From positions 1 through 42,542 of the forward strand of contig CAJBLH010000078.1 of assembly GCA_903953895.1 (NCBI GenBank): a DNA stretch of 42,542 bases. Reading direction: 5' to 3'. Shown here piece by piece: positions 32,657 through 42,542 of the stretch. Under the pieces are notes generated by a model. It worked only from the letters and a program-made list of their open reading frames with translations. It ran no database searches and was not told where the DNA came from. Each line of letters starts with the position of its first letter. Position 1 is the stretch's first letter. The position numbers and the translations under genes were made by a program. This DNA comes from an uncultured Desulfobacteraceae bacterium (lineage in GTDB: Bacteria > Desulfobacterota > Desulfobacteria > Desulfobacterales > Desulfatirhabdiaceae).

Positions 32657-34075
32657 ATGACTTCTGATGTCGCCCCCCACATTCTGGTTGCCGATGACGA
32701 ACTCAGCATGCGCGAGCTGCTGGAATACATGCTGACCAAAGAAGGCTACCGGGTATCCTGCGCTGAAAACGGCCGCAAAGCCATTTCGATGATCGAAGCC
32801 ACCGCTTTTGATCTGCTGATCTGCGACATTCGCCTGGGAGATATATCCGGCCTGGACGTCCTCAAGGCCACTAAAAAAATCAGCCCTCAAACCGTGGTAA
32901 TCATGATTTCCGCCTATACCACTACGGAAACCGCTGTTGCATCCATGAATGAAGGTGCATTTGATTTTGTTCCCAAGCCGTTCAACAACCAGGAACTCAA
33001 GCAGACCATTACCAATGCCCTGACCCTGAAGACCGTTGAAAATGAAAAAAAAAGTCTGGATGTCGCCCTGAAAAAGACACTTCATTTTGGGAAAATCATC
33101 GGAAATTCGCCCAAAATGCTTCTGGTTTATGACATGATTCGGCAGGTGGCAAAAACCACCACCAATATTCTGCTCACCGGTGAAAGCGGCACGGGTAAGG
33201 AACTGGTGGCCAGAGCCATTCATGACGAAAGCGACCGATGCAGCAAACCTTTTGTTGCGGTCAACTGCGGCGGCATTCCGGAAACCCTGATGGAAAGCGA
33301 ACTCCTGGGCTATAAGAAAGGCGCTTTTACCGGCGCCAACCTGGATAAAAAAGGATTGTTCGAGATCGCCAACAAGGGAACGATTTTTCTGGATGAAATC
33401 GGAGAACTCAGCACATCCATACAGGTGAAACTGCTGCGGGTCGTCCAGGAAAAAGCATTTAAGCCGGTTGGCGCCGGCGAAGATATCAGTGTGGATGTCC
33501 GCATCATCGCCGCCACCAATAGAGTACTCGAAGATGAAGTCATTGCCGGCCGTTTCAGAGAAGATTTGTTTTATCGCCTGAATGTCATCGGCATCCGCCT
33601 GCCCTCACTCCGGGAGCGAAAAGAAGATATCCGCCTTCTGGCCCATCATTTTCTGGAGAAATATTCCCGCGAAATGGGCAAAGAAATTACAAAGCTTTCT
33701 TCTTATGCCGTTGATTTACTGATGAAATATGATTTTCCTGGCAATATCCGCGAACTGGAGAATCTCATCGAGCGAAGTGTGGCCCTCTCCAATACCAATA
33801 TCATCCTGCCCGAAAGCCTGGCCATCTCACTTCACAAACAAATCCACAAACGCCGCTGGATCGAAGGCATCAAAAACAGGCGATATGATCTGGAAGATGT
33901 TGAAAATGGCGTCTCGATAGACACCATACTGGAAGAAATCGAAAAAGCTTATGTGGAAAAAGCCCTTGAATTCTCCAGAGGCGATAAATCCAGGGCTGCG
34001 GAACTTCTCAAGATCAACCTGCGATCCCTCAGATATCGGCTGGATAAGCTGTCCATCAAAAGTAAGAGGGATTAA
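32657..34075 (+). CDS. Sigma-54-dependent response regulator (NtrC family)
   Basis: The 472-residue protein has the three-domain NtrC layout. Receiver: DDE (13-15), phospho-acceptor Asp57 in ICDIRLG, Ser85 in MISAY and Lys107 in VPKPF. AAA+ domain: Walker A GESGTGKE (175-182), the sigma-54 contact loop GAFTGA (222-227), Walker B FLDEIGEL and the arginine region FREDLFYRLNV. The C-terminal Fis-type helix-turn-helix ends the protein (SRAAELLKINLRSLRYRLDKL). It would activate sigma-54 promoters when phosphorylated. It is 4 nt after pyrC, an unexpected partner, and no kinase gene follows; the next feature is a mobile-like inverted repeat. By layout it is closest to PilR/AtoC-type regulators, but its targets are unknown. 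Confidence 0.94.
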   Translation: MTSDVAPHILVADDELSMRELLEYMLTKEGYRVSCAENGRKAISMIEATAFDLLICDIRLGDISGLDVLKATKKISPQTVVIMISAYTTTETAVASMNEGAFDFVPKPFNNQELKQTITNALTLKTVENEKKSLDVALKKTLHFGKIIGNSPKMLLVYDMIRQVAKTTTNILLTGESGTGKELVARAIHDESDRCSKPFVAVNCGGIPETLMESELLGYKKGAFTGANLDKKGLFEIANKGTIFLDEIGELSTSIQVKLLRVVQEKAFKPVGAGEDISVDVRIIAATNRVLEDEVIAGRFREDLFYRLNVIGIRLPSLRERKEDIRLLAHHFLEKYSREMGKEITKLSSYAVDLLMKYDFPGNIRELENLIERSVALSNTNIILPESLAISLHKQIHKRRWIEGIKNRRYDLEDVENGVSIDTILEEIEKAYVEKALEFSRGDKSRAAELLKINLRSLRYRLDKLSIKSKRD

Positions 34076-34106
34076 TGAGCCTGCGCCTGCCAACATCGTG
34101 AGCTTA

Positions 34107-34212
34107 TATAGACATTCAGAAAAATAATTTCGCTGCGTTATCGGTCGGGAATGGCCGAAAAAGGCCTATTCCCTCCCTGCGCCTTGCGAAATGAATTTTC
34201 TGAATGTCTATA
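34107..34212. mobile_element. 106-bp MITE-like element with 27-bp terminal inverted repeats
   Basis: Left end (34107-34133) and right end (34186-34212, reversed) match at 25 of 27 positions: both begin TATAGACATTCAGAAAA and end ATTTCGC. The interior also folds (gggaatggcc ... ggcctattccc), so the element can form one long hairpin. It encodes nothing. One-ended relatives lie at 4996 and 19206. Outer ends TATA may reflect a TA target duplication. Standing 31 bp after the regulator stop, it may also act as terminator. Size and structure fit a non-autonomous element, but no parent transposase is in the window. Confidence 0.75.
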
Positions 34213-34288
34213 GATGTAACTCAAGCATTTTTTCATAAAATCCTGGATCATGTTTTTCGTTGGGTTATCAGGGCTAAGGATCAAACGT

Positions 34289-35935
34289 ATGAAACGTTTT
34301 TTCAATACCGCTGGGCCGGTGAAATGCCACAACCATTACTGTATTCCACCGCTCGAGCGCCTCAATCTGCCTGAAATTCTTTCCCTGATCGACCAGGAGA
34401 AATATTTTGTACTGCATGCCCCCAGGCAGACCGGAAAAACATCCTGTCTTTTGGCGCTCATGGAGCATCTGAACCGGCAGAGCCGGTATGAATGTCTGTA
34501 TGTCAACGTTGAAATTGCTCAGTCCGCCAGACAGAATGTTCATCGCGGGATCAAGGGGATATTAAACGAGATATCGGAAAGAGCCAGAATCTATTTGCAG
34601 AACGACAGGATTCAGCGTATCTGGCCCGATATTTTATCCGTCAGCGGAGAAGAAGGCGCCTTAAATACGGTATTGACCCGATGGGCGGAAGAATCAGCCA
34701 AGCCCATTGTGTTATTGATCGATGAAATCGACGCCTTGATCGGAGATACCCTGATATCGGTGCTGCGTCAGCTTTGGGCCGGATACGACAAGCGGCCGCA
34801 GCATTTTCCGCAAAGTATTATTTTATGCGGTGTTCGGGATGTCCGGGATTACCGCATCCACTCGGAAAAGGAACAAGCAATCATTACCGGCGGCAGCGCG
34901 TTCAATATCAAGACAAAGTCCTTGCGTCTCGGAGATTTTACCCGTGAAGAAATGAACCGGCTATATGATCAGCATACGGAAGAAACTGCACAGATTTTTC
35001 TTCCAGAGACGATCGACCTGGCGTGGCAATATACCAATGGTCAACCGTGGATCATCAATGCACTGGGATATGAAGTCTGTTTTGAAATGACAGGGGGACA
35101 TATCCGAGAATATCCCATCCTGCCGGAAATGGTTGCCCAGGCCAAAGAAAATCTGATTTTACGCAGAGAAACCCATCTGGACCAACTGGCAGACAAGCTT
35201 AAGGAAGATCGGGTTCGAAGGGTCATCGGTCCCGTACTGGCTGGTTTTACTGAACCTGAAAAAATCCCTGTGGACGATTTGAATTATGTGTGTGATCTGG
35301 GACTGATTCGGATAGACGGCCAGATTCGAATTGCCAATGAAATTTATCGGGAGATTATCCCGCGGGAACTCAATTATTCGACCCAGGTCACGATCTCCCA
35401 TGAACCATCATGGTATATTCGTGAAGATGGAGCGCTGGATATGAAAAAGCTGCTATCAGCGTTTCAGGATTTTTTTCAGGAACATTCGGAACACTGGATG
35501 GAACGATTTGACTACAAAGAAGCCGGGCCGCAACTGCTGATCCAGGCTTTTTTGCAGCGGATCGTAAACGGCGGTGGTCGGATCGAGCGGGAGTATGGGT
35601 TGGGCCGAATGCGAACGGATCTTCTGGTGATATGGCCGATCAAAGAACCGGATGACAGACGGCAGATAACAGAGGACACAGGGTACCAGTCATCCGCCGA
35701 CCGGCATCCGGAGAAAAACCAGCGGGTGGTCATCGAATTGAAGATTCTCTATAAAAGCATGGAGAAGACCATCGATGCCGGCCTGCAACAGACCTGGAAG
35801 TATATGGACCGTTGCCGGGCCGATGAAGGACATCTGGTCATCTTTGACCGCAGCCCCAAAAAATCCTGGAAGAAAAAACGCTTTGTCATGGAAAAGCGCT
35901 TTCAGGCACATTCCATTACGGTGTGGGGGATGTAA
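34289..35935 (+). CDS. ATPase with C-terminal PD-(D/E)XK-like nuclease, copy 1
   Basis: The 548-residue protein belongs to an uncharacterised family of AAA-like ATP-binding proteins. The start FFNTAGPVKCHNHYCIPPLER is followed by Walker A HAPRQTGKTS (43-52) and Walker B VLLIDEID (141-148), then a possible sensor region FPQSIILCGVRDVRDYR (174-189). A middle part (about 215-400) looks helical/winged. The C-terminal domain has the PD-(D/E)XK pattern: Glu435 (EREYGLGR), Asp444 (RTDLL), Glu483-x-Lys485 (VIELK) and a Q...Y motif (QQTWKYMD). A stretch of ~26 residues is inserted between Asp444 and Glu483. Start set by CTAAGGA 8 nt before the ATG. No signal peptide, so cytosolic. Function unknown; defence or mobile-element-related nuclease is an inference. 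Confidence 0.85.
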   Translation: MKRFFNTAGPVKCHNHYCIPPLERLNLPEILSLIDQEKYFVLHAPRQTGKTSCLLALMEHLNRQSRYECLYVNVEIAQSARQNVHRGIKGILNEISERARIYLQNDRIQRIWPDILSVSGEEGALNTVLTRWAEESAKPIVLLIDEIDALIGDTLISVLRQLWAGYDKRPQHFPQSIILCGVRDVRDYRIHSEKEQAIITGGSAFNIKTKSLRLGDFTREEMNRLYDQHTEETAQIFLPETIDLAWQYTNGQPWIINALGYEVCFEMTGGHIREYPILPEMVAQAKENLILRRETHLDQLADKLKEDRVRRVIGPVLAGFTEPEKIPVDDLNYVCDLGLIRIDGQIRIANEIYREIIPRELNYSTQVTISHEPSWYIREDGALDMKKLLSAFQDFFQEHSEHWMERFDYKEAGPQLLIQAFLQRIVNGGGRIEREYGLGRMRTDLLVIWPIKEPDDRRQITEDTGYQSSADRHPEKNQRVVIELKILYKSMEKTIDAGLQQTWKYMDRCRADEGHLVIFDRSPKKSWKKKRFVMEKRFQAHSITVWGM

Positions 35936-35939
35936 CGAT

Positions 35940-36095
35940 ATGGGGATACCCCCGCGATCGTGGTTTTTTTCGTACAGTGGATTTACGGAGGAGGCTGTCG
36001 CGCGGATGAAAGCGGTTGGGATGTTCTGGTCGTCGCAAACCGAACTGAATGAGCTGCTCGATTATGCCGGTCTCAGGCGGTTGCCGGATTTATAG
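35940..36095 (+). pseudogene. Duplicated 3' end of the 37880-39670 gene
   Basis: Bases 35954-36095 match 39529-39670 at 140 of 142 positions, in frame, encoding RSWFFSYSGFTEEAV...LRRLPDL, the last 46 residues of the larger ATPase. Here they are joined to five residues (MGIPP) from sequence that also follows copy 3 (tggg-ataccc). The frame is open (51 residues) but lacks the rest of the gene, so it is a fragment moved by recombination rather than a working gene. Confidence 0.85.
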
Positions 36096-36128
36096 TGGTT
36101 GAACTTCAAATGAAAAAATACGTATTAC

Positions 36129-36155
36129 TTTCGTGTTTTTCGTGTATTTCGTGGT
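36129..36155. repeat. Three 9-bp units TTTCGTGnn
   Basis: TTTCGTGTT, TTTCGTGTA and TTTCGTGGT follow each other without a gap in the intergenic stretch between the 3'-end fragment and copy 2. Similar TTTCGTG-rich stretches are known to me as recurrent intergenic sequence in environmental bacterial genomes; the role is unknown. Confidence 0.6.
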
Positions 36156-36221
36156 TAATATATTTTTCACGGTAATAGCGATTTATCCCGAATCGTAAAT
36201 GATGACAAACGAGGTTCGATC

Positions 36222-37796
36222 ATGAAATTCTTTACCACCGAAGGCCCTGTCAATTGCCAGGATCATTACTGCCTGCCGCCGCTCGAGCGGTTCGATCTGG
36301 ATGAAATTCTCAATCTGATAGCCCTGAAAAAATACTTTCTGATGCATGCCCCCCGCCAGACCGGAAAGACCAGCAGCCTTCTGGCGCTGATGGACTACCT
36401 GAATCGGGAAGGCACCTACCGGGCGCTGTATGCCAACATCGAAGGGGCGCAGGCCGCACGGGAAGACATTGAAATGGGGACGGCGGAGGTGATTCACAGT
36501 ATCGCTTTTTCTGCACGGGATTTTTTGGGTGATCATGAAGCACTGATTCTTGCCGAAAAGATCGTGGCGCAGGTACCAGCGACATCGGTGATCAAGGAGT
36601 TTCTCAACCAATGGTGCCGGCGATCATCCATCCCGTCGGTGCTGATTCTGGACGAGGCGGATGCCCTGATCGGCGACACCCTCATCTCCCTGCTGCGGCA
36701 ACTGCGGTCCGGTTACACCAACCGGCCGACGCTGTTTCCCCAATCCGTCATTTTGTGTGGAGTTCGGGATATCAAGGATTACAGAATCCATTCGAGCAGA
36801 GAAAATACGGTGATCACCGGCGGCAGCGCCTTCAATATCAAGGCGGAATCGCTGCGGCTTGGGGATTTCATTGCTCGGGAAGTTAACACTCTCCTTCATG
36901 AGCATACCCAAGAAACCGGGCAGGTTTTTGCGGACGATGCCTGCCGATCGATATGGAACTATACACAGGGACAGCCCTGGCTGGTCAATGCCCTGGCTTA
37001 TGAAGTCTGCTTCAGGATGAAGGAAGGCCGGGATCGAACCCGTCCCATCACCTCCGCAATGGTTGTTCAGGCCAAGGAACAATTGATCGAAAGACGGGTG
37101 ACGCATCTGGATCAACTGGCCGACAAGCTGATGGAACCACGCGTCCGGCGGGTGGTGGAGCCTATGCTGGCTGGTCTCAGTCTGGAAAGTATGAATCCGG
37201 ATGATATTCAGTATGTGGTGGATTTGGGGCTGTGCCGGATGAAATCGACCGGCCTGATCGAAATCGCCAACCCCATCTACCGGGAGGTATTGCCACGGAC
37301 ATTGGCGTTTGTACCCCAGGCATCGCTGCCTCAGATTTCGCCGACCTGGCTGAAACTGGACGGCGGTTTAGACACACAGACCCTGCTTATGTCATTTCTG
37401 CTGTTCTGGCGTCAGCACGGGGAACCCCTCCTGCGCAGTGCGCCCTATCATGAAATTGCGCCGCATCTGGTGCTGATGGCGTTCATGCACCGGGTGGTCA
37501 ACGGCGGCGGCACCATCGATCGGGAATATGCCATTGGCAGCGGCCGGATGGACTTGTGTATCCGGTATGGGGAGGTGACCCTGGCCATCGAACTGAAAGT
37601 CTGGCGGGATGGGGAGCCGGACCCCTTATCCGAAGGCTTGGAGCAGATCGATGGCTATCTGGGAGGGCTGTCTATGGATACCGGCTGGCTGGTGATCTTC
37701 GACCGCCGAAGCGATCAGCCCCGGATTCATGAGCGGACATTCACGGAGTTTGCTCTGACGACAACCGGCAAGGCTATTACCGTAATTCGGGCGTAA
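36222..37796 (+). CDS. ATPase with C-terminal PD-(D/E)XK-like nuclease, copy 2 (diverged)
   Basis: The 524-residue protein is a clear but distant relative of copies 1 and 3 over its whole length. Walker A HAPRQTGKT (42-50), Walker B VLILDEAD (140-147), the shared block TLFPQSVILCGVRDIKDYRIH, and the nuclease residues Glu435 (DREYAIGSGR), Asp444 (GRMDL), Glu457-x-Lys459 (IELK) with Q475/Y479 are all present. It lacks the 26-residue insertion between the nuclease Asp and Glu that copies 1 and 3 carry, so it probably shows the ancestral form. GAGG lies 7 nt before the ATG. It was not homogenised with its neighbours, which suggests a different target or partner. Function unknown. Confidence 0.85.
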   Translation: MKFFTTEGPVNCQDHYCLPPLERFDLDEILNLIALKKYFLMHAPRQTGKTSSLLALMDYLNREGTYRALYANIEGAQAAREDIEMGTAEVIHSIAFSARDFLGDHEALILAEKIVAQVPATSVIKEFLNQWCRRSSIPSVLILDEADALIGDTLISLLRQLRSGYTNRPTLFPQSVILCGVRDIKDYRIHSSRENTVITGGSAFNIKAESLRLGDFIAREVNTLLHEHTQETGQVFADDACRSIWNYTQGQPWLVNALAYEVCFRMKEGRDRTRPITSAMVVQAKEQLIERRVTHLDQLADKLMEPRVRRVVEPMLAGLSLESMNPDDIQYVVDLGLCRMKSTGLIEIANPIYREVLPRTLAFVPQASLPQISPTWLKLDGGLDTQTLLMSFLLFWRQHGEPLLRSAPYHEIAPHLVLMAFMHRVVNGGGTIDREYAIGSGRMDLCIRYGEVTLAIELKVWRDGEPDPLSEGLEQIDGYLGGLSMDTGWLVIFDRRSDQPRIHERTFTEFALTTTGKAITVIRA

Positions 37797-37815
37797 GGTG
37801 ATTTACATTATTATA

Positions 37816-37868
37816 AAGTATGAATTATGAATGAAGGATAATTCCAGTTTGATTCATAATTCATACTT
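37816..37868. repeat. Perfect 17-bp inverted repeat between copy 2 and the fourth ATPase
   Basis: aagtatgaattatgaat (37816-37832) and its exact reverse complement (37852-37868) enclose a 19-base loop. It follows the copy 2 stop by 19 bp and ends 11 bp before the next gene. It could be a terminator without U-tract, an operator, or another small palindromic repeat. Confidence 0.7.
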
Positions 37869-37879
37869 GAAATGTCGAG

Positions 37880-39670
37880 ATGATTATGGAAAAAAAACTC
37901 CCAGCGTATGCCATCCGCCCCATTGTTCCGGAGCCGGTTTATACCGACCGGAAAGAGCATCTGGATTATCTGTACCAGGCGGCGCTGGACGCCGTCGAAC
38001 GCCGCACCCTGTCGCTGGTGCTGTTGGGACAGCGCCGGATGGGAAAGACCGAGATATTCAAGCGGGTGGTGAACCGGCTGTTTTTCGGGCAGGAACATTA
38101 TGCGGATATCCATCGATCCGTGGTGCCGGTGTATTACTGTTTTCAGGATACCATAACGGACCGGTGGGATTTCAGCCTGAAATATGTCGAGAATTTCATT
38201 CGCTGGTATCTGGCGTTTCGATTGAGAGACGTTACGATTCTGTCATCCAAAGAAGTTACCCGGGAAAATCTGGTACGATTTTTGACGGACCGTCTCGATC
38301 AGTTTGGGGAAATGGAAGCAGCACTCAATTATTATGAAGGGTTTTTGAAGAAGGATGTTACCCTTCCTGAAAGTGCTGCCTTGTCCATTCCCCGACTTGT
38401 GTCGGACTGGCATGAGGCCACGATCGTGATGTTTATAGACGAGTTTCAGAACACCCGGCTGCCTCAGTACGGATTCGATGTGGTTGGCTTCATGCAGGAG
38501 GCGGTTGAATCGCCGACCTGTCCGCATTTCGTGACGGGGTCGGCCATGAGCATTCTGGCGCGGGAGATTCTGGGGCGGGGGTCGCTGTTCGGGCGGTTTG
38601 AAAGCGACCCCATTCAGGAAATGACCCCATATTGGGGAACCGAGCTGGCTGTGAAATCCGCTGAATATTATCATGCCGTCATCTCACCATCGCTGGCCCC
38701 GGTGATAGCGGAGCGGTGCGGCGGCAATCCGTTTTATATCACAGCGGTGATTCGTCAGTCCGCCAAACAGAACAAGCCTCTGACTGACGAAACCGTATTA
38801 AACGAGATTCTGGCCGTCGATCTGTCCTCCGGCTTTATCTGGGGAGAGTTGAGCGATCAGGTCAGTCGGTGGATCGCCCGGATCAACGAACATCAGATCA
38901 CCAAATGGGTGCTGTATCTATCCGCCCTGGAAGAAGGGGACAGGATCGATCTGGAACGGATTCAGCGTCAGATACGGGAAAAGGAAGGCCGGGATGTGCC
39001 GATGGATGTCATCCGGGATGTGCTGATCAAGCTGTCCCGCGGCGATCTGCTGGATTACATGGAGCTGGGCGGGTGGTTCCGGAAGGTGCAGGACCCGATT
39101 CTTCTGGAATTTCTGAAGGTCTGGGGAAAAATTGAGGTCGAGGGCATCAGCCCCTACCGGGTTCAAAAAGATATTCAGCAGAAATATCAGACCCTGGAAA
39201 AGCGAATCCGTGATCATCTGGGCTATGTGGCGGAGATTTACATGGCGCAGATATTGTGGAATTGCCAGAACAAGACCGTCCCCGGCCGGTGGTTCAATCA
39301 GGAGCAGGATATCGACGTACCATGGCATTTCAACTATATCTGGCACAGAACCCGCATTGGCGCCGGCAGGAACATGGAGCTGGATATCGAGGCGGCAGCC
39401 GGTGCGGAAATCTGGATCTGCGAAAGCAAATGGTGGAAGGATAGAAAAGCCGGCGTCCATGATGTCGAAATTCTGATCGAAAAAGGCAATCTGTTTCGGC
39501 TTAAAGAAGGAGCCGGGCTGAAAACGCTGCGATCGTGGTTTTTTTCGTACAGTGGATTTACGGAGGAGGCTGTCGCGCGGATGAAAGCGGTTGGGATGTT
39601 CTGGTCGTCGCAAACCGAACTGAATGAGCTGCTCGATTTTGCCGGTCTCAGGCGGTTGCCGGATTTATAA
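37880..39670 (+). CDS. P-loop ATPase (archaeal-ATPase-like) with C-terminal nuclease-like domain
   Basis: The 596-residue protein is not a close relative of copies 1-3. Its start (YTDRKEHLDYLYQ) and Walker A LLGQRRMGKTEI (48-59) with Walker B IVMFIDEFQ (182-190) resemble the archaeal-type STAND-like ATPases. A winged-helix-like middle (about 330-410: SALEEGDRIDLERIQRQI, LIKLSRGDLLDY) fits that group too. The C-terminal part carries Glu452, Asp502 (MELDIEA) and Glu515-x-Lys517 (CESKWW), a PD-(D/E)XK-like set. Two starts are near (37880, 37886); the second has the better-placed purine-rich stretch. Its last 142 bp are also present behind copy 1. Function unknown; such ATPases are often found in mobile or defence regions. 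Confidence 0.82.
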   Translation: MIMEKKLPAYAIRPIVPEPVYTDRKEHLDYLYQAALDAVERRTLSLVLLGQRRMGKTEIFKRVVNRLFFGQEHYADIHRSVVPVYYCFQDTITDRWDFSLKYVENFIRWYLAFRLRDVTILSSKEVTRENLVRFLTDRLDQFGEMEAALNYYEGFLKKDVTLPESAALSIPRLVSDWHEATIVMFIDEFQNTRLPQYGFDVVGFMQEAVESPTCPHFVTGSAMSILAREILGRGSLFGRFESDPIQEMTPYWGTELAVKSAEYYHAVISPSLAPVIAERCGGNPFYITAVIRQSAKQNKPLTDETVLNEILAVDLSSGFIWGELSDQVSRWIARINEHQITKWVLYLSALEEGDRIDLERIQRQIREKEGRDVPMDVIRDVLIKLSRGDLLDYMELGGWFRKVQDPILLEFLKVWGKIEVEGISPYRVQKDIQQKYQTLEKRIRDHLGYVAEIYMAQILWNCQNKTVPGRWFNQEQDIDVPWHFNYIWHRTRIGAGRNMELDIEAAAGAEIWICESKWWKDRKAGVHDVEILIEKGNLFRLKEGAGLKTLRSWFFSYSGFTEEAVARMKAVGMFWSSQTELNELLDFAGLRRLPDL

Positions 39671-39735
39671 CGATTGAACGTCACCCGATGTACCGAAAGC
39701 ATTTTATTGGGGCTGGGTTCTATCTTCGTCCACAT

Positions 39736-39777
39736 GTTGGCGCAATTATTCAAGGCCATTCAATTCATGCAATAACA
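39736..39777 (+). repeat. 42-bp direct repeat, left copy
   Basis: This stretch (gttggcgcaattattcaagg, then ccatt...aataaca) matches 41686-41727 at 37 of 42 positions, same orientation. The two copies bracket ATPase copy 3 and the truncated Uma2 gene. Confidence 0.75.
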
Positions 39778-39791
39778 GAAGGATCAAACGC

Positions 39792-41444
39792 TTGAAACGT
39801 TTTTTCAACACCGCTGGGCCGGTGAAATGCCACAATCATTACTGTATTCCACCGCTCGAGCGCCTCAATCTGCCTGAAATTCTTTCCCTGATCGACCAGG
39901 AGAAATATTTTGTGCTGCATGCCCCCAGGCAGACCGGAAAAACATCCTGTCTTTTGGCGCTCATGGAGCATCTGAACCGACAGGGGCGGTATGAATGTCT
40001 GTATGTCAACGTTGAAATTGCTCAGTCCGCCAGACAGAATGTTCATCGCGGAATCAAGGGGATATTGAACGAGATATCGGAAAGAGCCAGAATCTATTTG
40101 CAGAACGACAGGATTCAGCGTATCTGGCCCGATATTTTATCTGTCAGCGGAGAAGAAGGTGCGCTGAACACGGTATTGACCCGGTGGGCGGAAGAATCAC
40201 CCAAACCCATTGTTTTATTGATCGATGAAATCGACGCCTTGATCGGAGACACCTTGATATCTGTGCTGCGCCAGCTTCGGGCCGGATACGACAAGCGGCC
40301 GCAGCATTTTCCGCAAAGCATTATTTTATGCGGTGTCCGGGATGTACGAGATTACCGGATTCATTCGGACAAGGAAAATTCGGTCATCACCGGCGGCAGC
40401 GCATTCAATATCAAGACCAAATCCTTGAGACTCGGGGATTTTACCCGCAAAGAAATGAACAGCCTCTACCAACAGCATACGGATGAAACGTCGCAGATTT
40501 TTCTTCCCGAAACCATCGATCTGGCATGGGAATACACCAACGGCCAGCCATGGATTGTAAACGCGCTGGGATATGAAGTTTGCTTTGAAATGGAAGCGGA
40601 ACATATCCGGCAAAATCCGATAACACCGGACATGCTGGCTCAGGCCAAAGAAAATCTGATTATCAGGCGCGAAACCCATCTGGATCAACTCATGGACAAG
40701 CTTCAGGAAGCTCGTGTCATACGGGTGCTGGGACCGATTCTTGAAGGAAAGACGTTAACGCAGTCCTTTCAGAAAGATGATATCGGATATGTGCTGGATA
40801 TCGGTCTTATCCGGCAGGCGGCCAACGGGGAGATTCAACTGGCGAACCGGATATACCAGGAGATCATTCCGCGTGAGCTGGTGTGGAACATTCAATCCGG
40901 AATGACAGAAAAAACGTCCTGGTATATCCGGGAAGATGGTCTGCTGGATATGAAAAAGCTGCTTTCGGCGTTTCAGAATTTTTTTCAGGAGCATTCGGAA
41001 CACTGGATCGAGCGATTTGATTACAAAGAAGCCGGGCCGCAACTGCTGATCCAGGCATTTTTGCAGCGGATCATAAACGGCGGCGGTCGGATCGAGCGGG
41101 AGTATGGGTTGGGCCGAATGCGAACGGACCTTCTGGTGATATGGCCGATCAAAGAACCGGAGGACATACGTCAGATAACAGAGGACACGGAGTACCAGTC
41201 GTCCGCCGACCGTCAACCGGAGAAAAACCAGCGAGTGGTCATCGAATTGAAGATTCTCTATAAAAGCATGGAGAAGACCATCGATGCCGGCCTGCAACAG
41301 ACCTGGGAGTATATGGACCGTTGCCGGGCCGATGAAGGGCATCTGGTCATCTTTGACCGCAGCCCCAAAAAATCCTGGAAGAAAAAACGCTTTGTCATGG
41401 AAAAGCGTTTTCAGGCACATTCCATTACGGTGTGGGGGATGTAA
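39792..41444 (+). CDS. ATPase with C-terminal PD-(D/E)XK-like nuclease, copy 3
   Basis: The 550-residue protein is almost identical to copy 1 in residues 1-190 (five or so differences) and from about 402 to the end, but clearly diverged between about 215 and 400, with two extra residues there. All ATPase and nuclease motifs are kept (Walker A HAPRQTGKTS, Walker B VLLIDEID, RTDLL with Asp446, and IELK with Glu485/Lys487), including the insertion in the nuclease core. The start is TTG where copy 1 has ATG, in an otherwise conserved setting (AAGGATCAAACG just before it), which may lower its expression. A truncated Uma2 gene follows. Function unknown. Confidence 0.85.
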   Translation: MKRFFNTAGPVKCHNHYCIPPLERLNLPEILSLIDQEKYFVLHAPRQTGKTSCLLALMEHLNRQGRYECLYVNVEIAQSARQNVHRGIKGILNEISERARIYLQNDRIQRIWPDILSVSGEEGALNTVLTRWAEESPKPIVLLIDEIDALIGDTLISVLRQLRAGYDKRPQHFPQSIILCGVRDVRDYRIHSDKENSVITGGSAFNIKTKSLRLGDFTRKEMNSLYQQHTDETSQIFLPETIDLAWEYTNGQPWIVNALGYEVCFEMEAEHIRQNPITPDMLAQAKENLIIRRETHLDQLMDKLQEARVIRVLGPILEGKTLTQSFQKDDIGYVLDIGLIRQAANGEIQLANRIYQEIIPRELVWNIQSGMTEKTSWYIREDGLLDMKKLLSAFQNFFQEHSEHWIERFDYKEAGPQLLIQAFLQRIINGGGRIEREYGLGRMRTDLLVIWPIKEPEDIRQITEDTEYQSSADRQPEKNQRVVIELKILYKSMEKTIDAGLQQTWEYMDRCRADEGHLVIFDRSPKKSWKKKRFVMEKRFQAHSITVWGM

Positions 41445-41448
41445 CAAT

Positions 41449-41751
41449 GTGGGAATACCCAAAAAAACCATCGAGACCACCACAGCAGATGAATATTTTT
41501 CCCTTGAACGGCAATCTGTGGAAAGAAACGAATTTTATCAGGGAGAATGTATGGCCATGGCCGGAGGTTCACGATGGCATAACCGTCTGGCCGGACAGAT
41601 TTTCGCTGCCTTGATCCACCATCTTGATGGGAAACCCTGTACGCCGTATATGGCGGATATTCGTCTCAGTCCAATTTTCCATTACGTTGGCGGAATTATA
41701 CAAGGCCATTCGATTCACGCAATAGCACGTGTTCTGCCCCGCTATTCGTAG
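41449..41751 (+). pseudogene. Uma2-family (DUF820) gene, truncated
   Basis: From a GTG at 41449 the frame reads VGIPKKTIETTTADEYFSLE, then RQSVERNEFYQGECMAMAGGSR, HNRLAGQIFAAL, DGKPCTPYMADIRL. This is the N-terminal half of a Uma2-family endonuclease-like protein (PD-(D/E)XK fold, usually ~185 residues). After YMADIRLSP the similarity ends, within the region of the 42-bp repeat (41686-41727), and the frame stops at 41751. The DEF/ExK core expected further on is missing, so it is broken. Its end overlaps the convergent toxin gene by 10 bp. Confidence 0.75.
41686..41727 (+). repeat. 42-bp direct repeat, right copy
   Basis: Matches 39736-39777 at 37 of 42 positions and lies exactly where the Uma2 gene loses similarity to its family, 14 bp before the toxin stop. 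This is the likely breakpoint of the rearrangement that truncated Uma2. Confidence 0.75.
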
Positions 41752-42005
41752 TGAGTCCACATGCGAATGACTTTGACAGTTTTTTGATCATCTATAACCT
41801 GATAAATTAACCGGTGCTGAATATTTATTCGCCGAGAAAAAGCGCCTGCTAAATCACCGACGAGCTTTTCATAGGCTGGTGGAACTTGGTAAGGATTCTC
41901 GCGTAGGATTTGAAGTAATGTTTCAGCTTTCGTTCTGAGTCCAGACGTAGTTAATTTTTTAGCATCCTTCTGGGCTAGCTTCGTGAAAACGAGTCTCCAA
42001 CTCAC
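41742..42005 (-). CDS. yoeB: YoeB-type toxin (RelE superfamily mRNA interferase)
   Basis: The 87-residue protein matches YoeB, a ribosome-dependent mRNA endonuclease that blocks translation. Family blocks are all there: VFTKLAQKDAKKL, KLVGDLAGAFSRRINIQHRLIY and the end RMWTHYE. The catalytic residues Glu46, Arg65 and the C-terminal His (His85; His83 in E. coli) are present, so it should be active. The start is GTG overlapping the antitoxin stop as GTGA, with AGGGGA upstream; an in-frame TTG one codon earlier is less likely. It is the second gene of a toxin-antitoxin operon. Confidence 0.93.
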   Translation of the reverse strand: MSWRLVFTKLAQKDAKKLTTSGLRTKAETLLQILRENPYQVPPAYEKLVGDLAGAFSRRINIQHRLIYQVIDDQKTVKVIRMWTHYE

Positions 42006-42244
42006 CAATCGAGTTCCCCTCTACATTCATCCAGTGGCGTTGCTAAACCTTCACGGATAGACTCCCGCATACCAGGAATGTTTAAAAGATACATGGTTTC
42101 TTGAATTGAACGCCAGTCATCCTCAGATATTAAAACGGCGTTTCCACGTTTGCCTGTTATAAGGATTGGCTCGTGAGATGACGATGTTTGATCGATAAGT
42201 CGATACAGATTGGTTCTTGCCTCTGTGGCTGATAATGTCGGCAT
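42002..42244 (-). CDS. yefM: YefM-type antitoxin (Phd/YefM family)
   Basis: The 80-residue protein has the N-terminal DNA-binding Phd/YefM fold (TLSATEARTNLYRLIDQ, ILITGKRGNAVLISEDDW) and the C-terminal toxin-binding tail (ETMYLLNIPGMRESIREG). It neutralises YoeB and represses the operon with it. The start at 42244 follows GAGGT at a good distance; the frame also opens 4 codons upstream without a ribosome-binding site. It is encoded before the toxin, as usual. Confidence 0.94.
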   Translation of the reverse strand: MPTLSATEARTNLYRLIDQTSSSHEPILITGKRGNAVLISEDDWRSIQETMYLLNIPGMRESIREGLATPLDECRGELDW

Positions 42245-42266
42245 GGTACACCTCATTTTTTGATTA

Positions 42267-42295: not shown

Positions 42296-42440
42296 TGCTT
42301 ATTTTAAGACAAAACGTAAGGCTTGGCGATACACGGATAAATGTCTGGCAGAAACAATGATCAATGCATAGAAAAAATCTGAATCAGACAATGGTATTTT
42401 TGGCATCCTTCATTTCTCAGTTAACACTTTGCATGGAAAA

Positions 42441-42542
42441 TTATAAGAATTTATTACCGTAAACGACAGCGCCCTGTTTATTGGAGCTTCTTTTCCAAAA
42501 GGTCTTCAAATCAATGGCCGGAACTGATTTTAACCTTTTCAA
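42441..42542 (-). CDS. Possible end of a gene entering from the right edge
   Basis: The minus-strand frame is open from the window edge for 33 codons (LKRLKSVPAIDLKTFW...VVYGNKFL) and stops at 42441. Composition is protein-like, but it is too short to assign or to be sure it is coding. The stretch 42296-42440 between it and the toxin-antitoxin promoter holds nothing I can support. Confidence 0.3.
   Translation of the reverse strand: MKRLKSVPAIDLKTFWKRSSNKQGAVVYGNKFL

Follow-up and report, generated by a model that had tools for sequence, protein, structure and literature searches.

In a 42,542-nucleotide stretch of DNA from an uncultured Desulfobacteraceae bacterium (the window), four complete ORFs, all on the forward strand, occupy positions 34289-41444 (Table 1). 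Genes 1, 2 and 4 belong to one family (F1) and gene 3 to another (F2), each joining a P-loop ATPase to a predicted C-terminal PD-(D/E)XK nuclease. The first-pass annotation had proposed both this architecture and the three-plus-one split, and both are borne out by the intact ORFs, the near-invariant motifs and the order of helices and strands in structural models. The closest relative of gene 4 is an F1 gene on contig C77 of genome G001, and gene 2 has close relatives elsewhere in G001, in G004 and G007, and on contig C300 of its own genome. A further in-frame ATG for gene 1 is present at 34250.

The sigma-54 response regulator that anchors this variable site has best matches in all seven related genomes searched, and within the 2.5-9 kb read downstream of it in each, only G001 has an adjoining F1 gene. 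The MITE-like element reported earlier is real and has at least 40 long copies in the genome, its own copy counted (40 of the 158 candidates scored); the toxin-antitoxin pair is equally genuine. Recombination scars proved richer than had been claimed, comprising the tail of an F2 gene, a Uma2-like remnant and a direct repeat of ~42 bp (88% identity) on both sides of gene 4, of which a third copy lies upstream of an F1 gene on contig C88. The repeated sequence at the contig end is probably the end of an IS.

Table 1. Features of the array and its flanks (coordinates in the window).
Feature	Position	Strand	Evidence
Sigma-54 response regulator, NtrC/PilR-like, anchor of the variable site	32657..34075	+	Pfam Sigma54_activat 2e-69, Response_reg
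MITE-like element, 106 bp, 27-nt inverted ends 93% complementary	34107..34212	.	
Gene 1, F1: STAND-type ATPase + predicted PD-(D/E)XK	34289..35935	+	ORF, Pfam, conserved residues
Gene 1 M2 segment, winged helix, ~aa 307-376, allele unlike that of gene 4	35207..35416	+	
F2 gene 3' tail remnant, 95% identical to 39520-39683	35945..36108	+	
Gene 2, F1, second subfamily	36222..37796	+	ORF, Pfam, relatives
Small inverted repeat, 20-nt arms, between genes 2 and 3	37816..37868	.	
Gene 3, F2: archaeal-type STAND ATPase + Mrr/AF1548-like predicted nuclease	37880..39670	+	Pfam, profile match, model
Gene 3 segment corresponding to F2 variable module V, ~aa 103-175	38186..38404	+	
Gene 3 predicted nuclease domain, ~aa 426-596; D502, E515, K517	39155..39667	+	
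Direct repeat copy 1, directly upstream of gene 4	39736..39777	.	
Gene 4, F1, TTG start	39792..41444	+	ORF, Pfam, conserved residues
Gene 4 V1 segment, helical, inserted between the Walker A and B motifs, ~aa 81-135	40032..40196	+	
Gene 4 M2 segment, winged helix, ~aa 307-378, allele common to G001	40710..40925	+	
Gene 4 predicted PD-(D/E)XK domain, ~aa 385-550; E437, D446, E485, K487, Q503, Y507	40944..41441	+	
Uma2-like (PF05685) remnant	41455..41670	+	Pfam E 2.3e-5, 24.4 bits vs cut-off 27
Direct repeat copy 2	41686..41727	.	
YoeB/ParE-type toxin	41742..42008	-	
Phd/YefM-type antitoxin	42002..42256	-	
Repeated sequence at the contig terminus, shared with the ends of six further contigs	42402..42542	.	

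The suggested paralogue expansion extends well beyond the array, the genome containing 21 F1 and 7 F2 matches with fragments counted. Among 57 genomes searched, this one included, F1 was found in 21 and F2 in nine. One genome collection has F1 relatives at 570 loci or more, and they occur in diverse environmental bacteria and archaea; none was found in phage records or, by close-relative patterns, in viral contigs. Relatives on plasmids carry labels as vague as anticipated ('ATP-binding protein', 'AAA family ATPase', 'AAA-like domain-containing' or hypothetical). The defence or mobile-element island context that had also been proposed found no support among the neighbour families listed. For the 343 neighbouring proteins scanned (97 of 98 from the same genome, 113 of 149 from other genomes and 133 of 329 around named loci), the 25 commonest Pfam families listed per set have housekeeping functions (metabolic, regulatory, pilus, repeat and transport families). 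One set also held two YhgA-like transposase and two DUF1703-type matches, and no Tn7-type transposase stood among the commonest families listed. PADLOC returned some defence matches in these neighbours, with no family among those listed exceeding five members of a set.

The ATPase and nuclease halves

Pfam places AAA_22/AAA_35 above cut-off in genes 1 and 4 and below it in genes 2 and 3; for AAA_35 (PF14516, gathering score 27) the scores are 30.1 bits in gene 1, 34.8 in gene 4 and 18.4 in gene 2. This family, which covers the ATPase half only, is matched by 38/38 F1 members at E<=0.01. Two AlphaFold2 models were examined, one for F1 and one for F2 (mean pLDDT 82.0 and 88.1). The best solved match of the F1 model was 2qen (Z 21.1, rmsd 3.6, 312 residues aligned), followed by 2fna (Z 18.3) and then by plant NLRs, ORC2 and CED-4, while the F2 model was closest to 2fna (Z 25.3, rmsd 3.5, 328 aligned) and next to 2qen (Z 24.8). 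In both families the 2fna/2qen matches (Z 18-25) span the ATPase and the winged helix. RQxGKT, D145/E146, G251 and P253 are conserved in 135-136 of the 136 F1 sequences that cover most of the profile, Walker A conservation being partly by construction because a Walker-A pattern served to retrieve 80 of the loci. The GxP motif is a STAND marker, and its glycine and proline are present in 136/136 F1 sequences; in F2, K56, D187, E188 and the GxP proline P284 are found in 67/67. Judged by modelled fold and conserved residues, the ATPase halves of F1 and F2 are STAND-type P-loop NTPases, with the defining Walker A, DE-bearing Walker B and GxP motifs and, beyond the core, helical and winged-helix domains.

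Profile searches of the C-terminal half, which had been advised as a check, gave an uneven outcome. Single-sequence Pfam matches were weak (PDDEXK_3 at E 0.14 and 0.16, PDDEXK_9 at 0.045, DUF234 at 0.057), whereas the F2 domain matched 1y88/AF1548 by profile (E 1.1e-4, positions 492-594). By this profile similarity the F2 C-terminal domain is Mrr/AF1548-like; Mrr_cat itself was matched in only 3/27 F2 members, and PDDEXK_9 in 7/38 F1 members (best E 9.6e-5). The putative catalytic motif is nearly invariant in F1, with E437 and K487 in 136/136 sequences and D446, E485, Q503 and Y507 in 135/136 each, a catalytic residue being broken in two of the 136. In F2, E452, D502 and K517 are present in 67/67 and E515 in 58/67, with Q at that position in the other nine. 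The order of helices and strands in both models fits the restriction-endonuclease core, residues 439-441 and 458-475 of the F1 model lying below pLDDT 50. Frame segments of four pairs show purifying selection (pN/pS 0.05-0.32).

Segment replacement between paralogues

F1 paralogues consist of near-identical frames carrying exchanged alleles at two places, the helical insert V1 (~aa 81-135) and the winged helix M2 (~aa 303-378). Between genes 1 and 4, fourfold-degenerate sites differ at 14/76 in the N-terminal frame and 11/63 in the C-terminal frame, compared with 15/18 in M2; the F1 genes of C88 and G006 present the reverse pattern (N 20/71, C 14/52, M2 1/29). Trees of the separate segments, in which the groupings tested were picked after a first look at the segment differences, conflict accordingly. 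Genes 1 and 4 group together in the N tree (support 100/99), a grouping rejected for M2 (p-AU 7e-4), while gene 4 groups with G001 in the M2 tree (97/95), which is rejected for both N and C (2e-5 each). For the C88 and G006 grouping, the M2 data give support and the C data rejection, but N does not reject it (p-AU 0.061); a genus clade is rejected only marginally by M2 (0.042).

The pattern recurs well outside this locus. M2 is at most 65% identical in 11 of the 15 F1 pairs whose N and C segments are at least 80% identical, and V1 or M2 is the lowest block in 10/12 F1 clusters (8/10 without the two block-defining clusters, p 1.7e-4). In G033, two V1 and two M2 alleles occur in every one of their four pairings across a four-gene array, and the five copies on a Latescibacteria chromosome record carry three V1 and two M2 alleles. 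In a pair of copies from Methanospirillum stamsii, an archaeal isolate, replacement took in V1 together with the sequence around it (V1 18% amino acid identity, M2 99%). Exchange is not confined to these blocks, having also affected the N-terminus of one Latescibacteria copy and, in M. stamsii, the greater part of aa ~15-180, nor are all edges sharp: genes 1 and 4 part gradually on the left, with DNA identity of 69-97% over residues ~187-306 ahead of the drop to 39-61%, and with silent divergence raised there as well (pS 0.57). In M2, pN did not exceed pS (Fisher p >=0.89), and the allele of gene 4 and G001 is conserved between species (pN 0.04). The mean variability profile is the same within genomes as between them, meaning that the variable segments are the fastest-evolving everywhere, so that only the sharp mosaics and the reassortment of alleles argue for swapping.

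F2 mosaics involve one main segment, V. Per-window DNA identity in the tandem pair of G013 is 92-100% outside this segment and 56-86% inside it, and in that of G055 81-100% and 50-86%, respectively. V is the lowest block in 8/13 F2 clusters (4/8 without the five V-defining clusters, p 0.0035), and in some clusters the nuclease end was swapped too. As read from these sequence comparisons, both families have undergone segment replacement, and in F1 alleles have been reassorted.

Possible function and rival explanations

From these features we infer recognition, cutting and a target, and we consider the chances about even that each F1 or F2 gene encodes by itself an ATP-switched nuclease whose target-recognition cassettes can be swapped, used in intracellular conflict. 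Each gene would supply a STAND-type ATPase followed by the predicted nuclease. HsdS carries two target-recognition modules, and V1 and M2 may, by analogy, form comparable recognition surfaces. Binding of the target together with ATP would drive assembly, releasing the nuclease on DNA, and homologous recombination in the conserved frame of tandem arrays could generate new cassette combinations. Most likely they would restrict mobile elements or DNA entering the cell, acting as stand-alone genes and not as part of classical defence islands; this preferred conflict role is suggested by the STAND core and the cassette swapping, rather than by gene context.

Several other explanations bear on the same data. 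F1 and F2 could be selfish, homing-like genes that spread by cutting, the variable segments setting the insertion target. They are indeed multi-copy and patchy, one site has F1 in G001 and lacks it in G002, the sequence shared by genes 1 and 4 starts just before the start codon and stops just past the stop, solo F1 tails exist (C88:8357 and G005:C4:700-764), and the fold resembles TnsC/MuB (Z ~15). This account is nevertheless unlikely, given that genes 1 and 4 carry different M2 alleles in one array and that the four combinations of G033 share one 12-kb stretch, so the allele does not predict the site there; in addition, inspection by eye of a set of flanks revealed no terminal repeats that the copies have in common, and purifying selection also speaks against it. 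A role in chromosome maintenance or repair, with an Orc/Cdc6- or RuvB-like ATPase, a resolvase-like nuclease and loosely constrained variable segments, would agree with the fold similarity to Cdc6/Orc and RuvB, the AF1548-like tail of F2, the housekeeping neighbours and an archaeal OLD-family ATPase-nuclease which, in the available text of its report, acts in the cell cycle and apparently not in defence (PMC12796447). Yet most related genomes lack F1 and F2, others have them at high copy number, and an M2 allele conserved across species while differing between paralogues of one array is not what loose constraint would give, making this role quite unlikely.

That the mosaics are misassembled repeats deserves mention, since the genome is fragmented, with many copies at contig ends, and several genomes, G001 and G006 among them, are MAGs in which near-identical repeats are open to mis-assembly. 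The same pattern in the M. stamsii isolate and in the single-chromosome record, and an M2 allele common to gene 4 and G001 across separate assemblies, render an artefact very improbable. Secretion of the proteins as effectors directed at other cells, a role suggested for the DUF1703 proteins of Cardinium, is also very improbable: the architecture type and the recombining expansion are alike and signal peptides are predicted there in 10 of 25 copies, according to the portion of that report drawn on here (PMC6387759), but the window proteins have no signal peptide obvious by eye, and the hosts of the relatives are environmental bacteria and archaea of diverse kinds.

Returning to the conflict nucleases, a bolder and distinctly tentative extension is that F1 constitutes an unrecognised combinatorial recognition family with two exchangeable cassettes, its arrays being reassorting repertoires, and F2 a parallel one with a single main cassette. 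Such arrays would be a prokaryotic equivalent of NLR clusters, with domain shuffling of the HsdS kind added. Annotations of F1 relatives elsewhere go no further than ATP-binding or hypothetical protein. Should V1 and M2 be recognition cassettes, nature will already have carried out the domain-swap experiment, and near-isogenic proteins differing in one module would point straight at the specificity determinants. Pairs like genes 1 and 4 would then allow the role of these expanded ATPase-nucleases to be tested, and prokaryotic conflict systems would gain a combinatorial strategy for diversifying recognition.

Relation to known systems

As an architecture the array is not undescribed, contrary to the first-pass annotation, because fusions of an AAA-ATPase to a PDDEXK domain were defined as DUF1703 in 2007 (PMC1913061) and a recombining 25-copy expansion of them was described in Cardinium in 2019 (PMC6387759). 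According to the available text of these reports, DUF1703 proteins (AAA-ATPase_like PF09820 plus PDDEXK_9 PF08011) share with F1 and F2 the N-terminal P-loop ATPase, the C-terminal PD-(D/E)XK domain, a tie to the archaeal ATPase family and paralogue expansion with intragenic recombination. F1 differs in fitting AAA_35 (38/38) better than PF09820 (18/38 at E<=0.01). Membership was rejected, and F1 is called DUF1703-like, because both domains fall below the Pfam gathering scores: PF09820 reaches 20.4 bits in gene 1 and 19.4 in gene 4 against 26.1, with gene 2 unlisted, and PF08011 14.2 bits in gene 2 against 25.5.

The archaeal ATPases SSO1545 (2fna) and PABY2304 (2qen), of PF01637, have the same STAND-type core with winged helix; their solved chains have ~350 residues, to which F1 and F2 add at least ~170 nuclease residues and cassette swapping. 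Avs proteins and NLRs likewise join a STAND ATPase to an effector, and an Avs5 chain is among the structural matches of F1 (Z 13.2). Characterised antiviral STAND proteins, as far as the excerpted source goes, usually have an N-terminal effector and a variable C-terminal sensor (PMC10907252), whereas F1 and F2 have their predicted nuclease at the C-terminus and vary within the ATPase module. An Avs identity was rejected on account of this C-terminal nuclease, of Pfam and model searches that found no repeat domain in the array proteins, and of PADLOC matches of the array genes that contained no Avs family up to E 1. The PADLOC phage-defence candidate PDC-S01 matches genes 1, 3 and 4 weakly at the P-loop (E 3e-4 to 1e-2), over only part of the ATPase, which does not amount to a family match.

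Exchange of variable recognition modules by recombination is reported for HsdS of type I restriction, in the parts of the literature cited here (PMC3077401, PMC7394358). The exchanged modules of F1 and F2, whose recognition role is proposed by analogy, sit instead in an ATPase-nuclease, and these proteins have no known methylase partner such as that of HsdS. STAND antigen sensors of multicellular bacteria are diversified by DGRs, through targeted hypermutation by error-prone reverse transcription, as the same partial source describes (PMC10907252); F1 and F2 resemble them in having diversified putative sensors on STAND proteins and differ in that discrete alleles are exchanged. For Cardinium, the available text reports recombination and 'no apparent homogenization', and does not describe discrete cassettes in a homogenised frame (PMC6387759). 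What appears to be new here is the manner in which the copies differ, namely by the exchange of discrete segments.

The array and the site that it occupies

The window is the whole of contig C78 and belongs to a 5.47-Mb genome in 315 contigs, whose nearest named relatives are Deltaproteobacteria/Desulfobacteraceae MAGs. The four complete genes proposed by the first-pass annotation were confirmed, as was their division into two families, genes 1 and 2 matching gene 4 at 87% and 51% identity within the matched portion (family F1) and gene 3 belonging to a second family (F2). The scars of recombination that it had read in the array also proved real, and comprise three features absent from its list: a truncated F2 tail downstream of gene 1, a Uma2 remnant downstream of gene 4, and a ~42-bp direct repeat that brackets gene 4 and has a third copy adjoining an F1 gene on C88, another contig of the same genome. 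Its MITE-like element was borne out by copies across the genome; further copies occur in related genomes. Solo F1 3' tails comparable to the window's F2 tail were seen at two other loci, and look as if left by recombination or deletion. The repeat closing the contig is probably the end of an IS that interrupted assembly.

Coordinates of the array, its surroundings and comparable fragments (window contig C78 unless another is named)
Feature	Position	Strand	Remarks
Sigma-54 regulator gene	32657..34075	+	
Variable locus	32657-34250		L136, L184
MITE-like palindromic element	34107-34212		106 bp; at least 40 long copies in own genome, 81-97% identity
Four ATPase-nuclease genes	34289-41444	+	
Sequence just before contig end	42325-42394		~70 bp; recurs many times in genome G006 (87-99%)
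Repeat at contig end	42402-42542		~140 bp; also at ends of C233, C242, C209, C198, C143, C180
Solo F1 3' tail (L117)	C88:8357-8455		
Solo F1 3' tail (L189)	G005:C4:700-764		

The sigma-54 regulator upstream of gene 1 has a best match in 7/7 relatives. In one of them, G001, the regulator is followed by an F1 gene, two small ORFs (toxin-antitoxin-like by eye) and a pilin-like gene. That pilin-like gene begins only ~420 bp past the regulator in G002, with homology to G001 picking up again ahead of it, so that the interval is an empty site at species distance. The remaining relatives carry different genes after the regulator (2.5-9 kb read). The contents downstream of the regulator differ in this way among genomes, and the locus is therefore a variable one; since F1 adjoins the regulator in both the window's genome and G001, the arrangement is common to two species.

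The suggestion that the array lies in a defence island was not supported among the 25 commonest families listed for each set in the neighbour scans, which had no control set alongside and covered 97/98, 113/149 and 133/329 of the neighbour proteins (the rest falling to sampling, size limits and, for two frames, overlap with the F1 match itself); the scanned sets may still include some antisense frames. Other ATPase-nuclease-like genes adjoin F1 at a few loci (neighbour sets A4 and A5), namely two DUF1703-type members, two each of AAA_14 and DUF4143, and PDC-S01 matches.

Exchange of segments between copies

Between genes 1 and 4, identity is 92-99% in the first ~550 bases and 91-98% in the last ~450, but only 53-59% around bases 900-1125. 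The right edge of the divergent stretch is sharp, near residue 378; on the left, identity is 69-97% from ~residue 187 and drops to 39-61% at residue 307, in the winged helix. This variable segment (M2, ~aa 303-378) differs at 15/18 fourfold sites, the flanking frame segments N and C at 14/76 and 11/63. The M2 allele of gene 4 is also found in the G001 gene. Similarly, the C88 copy (L117) and a gene of another species (G006_C357, L060) have a common M2 that differs at 1/29 fourfold sites, below the 20/71 and 14/52 of their frame, which suggests that only the cassette was transferred, and recently.

The segment trees, in which the groups tested were picked after the identities had been seen, conflict accordingly. 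In the N tree gene 1 pairs with gene 4 (100/99), and a grouping of gene 4 with G001 is rejected (p-AU 2e-5). The M2 tree supports the pairs gene 4/G001 (97/95) and C88/G006 (99/99), and here it is gene 1/gene 4 that is rejected (p-AU 7e-4). The C tree rejects both gene 4 with G001 (p-AU 2e-5) and C88 with G006 (0.001). No rejection was obtained for C88 with G006 in N (p-AU 0.061) or for gene 1 with gene 4 in C (0.30), and the tree of residues 191-290 decides for neither gene 1 nor G001 as the partner of gene 4. Fifteen F1 pairs reach 80% identity or more in both N and C; in 11 of them M2 is at most 65% identical, and gene 4/G001 and C88/G006 are two of the other four (M2 >65%).

Mosaic copies were found independently elsewhere. 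A four-gene F1 array in genome G033 combines two alleles of V1, the other variable segment of F1 (~aa 81-135; alleles 33% identical in amino acids), with two M2 alleles (51-54%) in all four possible ways, within a frame of 94-100% identity. Two F1 rows with ambiguous letters were dropped from the F1 alignment, where the C88 row was also omitted; one of them, the fourth G033 copy, was kept in the profile, segment-tree, mosaic and cluster comparisons, ambiguous letters being ignored. A Latescibacteria chromosome record contains five copies, among which V1 has three alleles and M2 two, one copy differing in its N-terminus too. In the archaeal isolate Methanospirillum stamsii, the two tandem copies diverge over aa ~15-180, most strongly in V1 (18% identity), with M2 at 99%. 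In F2, the tandem pairs of genomes G013 and G055 are near-identical except in one segment (aa ~85-175). Within clusters of closely similar sequences, the block of lowest identity was V1 or M2 in 10/12 F1 clusters (8/10 without those that defined the blocks) and V, the variable segment of F2, in 8/13 F2 clusters (4/8 on the same basis); the other five F2 clusters are most variable outside V, in one case where the nuclease domain ends.

The idea that the variable segments are peculiar to paralogues was rejected, mean profiles being alike within and between genomes: V1, M2 and V evolve fastest between genomes as well. The claim retained is one of discrete swaps and reassortment only. No positive selection was detected in M2 by pN/pS (0.12 for gene 4/G001, 0.56 for C88/G006), and the absence of a replacement excess indicates that in these pairs diversity comes from exchange of old alleles and not from fresh mutation.

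Domains, predicted structure and distribution

Pfam searches with single sequences identified the ATPase half clearly in genes 1 and 4, all other matches being weak. AAA_35 matched 38/38 F1 sequences and PDDEXK_9 7/38, ATPase_2 19/27 F2 sequences and Mrr_cat 3/27, and the F2 profile found AF1548 (1y88; E 1.1e-4). No sequence match of F1 to solved nucleases was obtained (E up to 1), and profile comparison of the F1 and F2 nuclease domains gave a probability of 2.3%, although D and ExK align. Residues of the nuclease motif hardly vary across 136 F1 and 67 F2 sequences, all selected because they span most of the profile; since a Walker-A pattern served to retrieve 80 of the loci, the conservation of Walker A in F1 is in part built in. 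E515 of the F2 ESK motif (gene 3 numbering) is Q in 9/67 sequences and E500 is Q in 15/67, reminiscent of the Mrr-type QxK variant. A tie of DUF234 to natural transformation was discarded, the text match concerning DUF2341.

The AlphaFold2 models (pLDDT 82.0 for F1, 88.1 for F2) found archaeal STAND ATPases as best structural matches (F1, 2qen, Z 21.1; F2, 2fna, Z 25.3), followed by plant NLRs, ORC/Cdc6, CED-4 and, further down, TnsC; these matches extend over the ATPase and winged helix, and the structure search hardly probed the nuclease halves. V1 and V correspond in position in the models, each made up of the helices that lead from the second strand to the Walker-B strand.

F1 was detected in 21/57 genomes searched, the window's among them, and reaches 29 matches in one genome; F2 was detected in 9/57. 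Named F1 loci number at least 570, of which the best 80 belong to Desulfobacterota, Chloroflexi, Latescibacterota, Acidobacteria, Gammaproteobacteria, Spirochaetes, Bacteroidota, Heliophilum and methanogenic archaea. Relatives also occur in 15 plasmid-collection records (11 cyanobacterial); eight plasmids (H4-H11) of two Pseudanabaena strains carry F1 relatives at 39-40% identity. No relatives were found in phage records, nor in viral contigs searched with close-relative patterns. All nine F2 genomes contain F1, vs 21/57 overall (p 3e-5), a co-occurrence that large genomes may favour for both families. Among the matches listed, F1 lies within 1 kb of F2 at 7 places (2 in the window) in 5 genomes, vs 0.8 expected under uniform placement, a generous null, with two own-genome fragments omitted. 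An F2-like gene was found at only 1/80 named F1 loci (flanks up to 3 kb), which speaks against pairing as a general rule; it is at most lineage-specific.

Proposed mode of action and precedents

The sequences show that the genes are intact, join a STAND ATPase to a nuclease domain and differ by exchanged modules. STAND proteins are switches triggered by ligand binding and ATP, and in Orc/Cdc6 relatives DNA is contacted by the winged helix and an ATPase insert. In the proposed model, the exchanged modules would recognise targets and, after the ligand- and ATP-driven switch, the C-terminal nuclease would cut DNA. Given the contacts of Orc/Cdc6 relatives, DNA is a plausible ligand; by analogy with Avs, the ligand may instead be a protein. 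Recombination would both produce the arrays and act on them.

The ATPase-nuclease architecture is already known from DUF1703 (PMC1913061), and an expansion of DUF1703 proteins with recombination is described for Cardinium (PMC6387759); the window genes fall below the DUF1703 Pfam thresholds. The literature searched, most subscription papers lying outside its scope, yielded no account of cassettes being shuffled in such ATPase-nucleases, and within that literature what appears new here is the shuffling of cassettes on an already known architecture.
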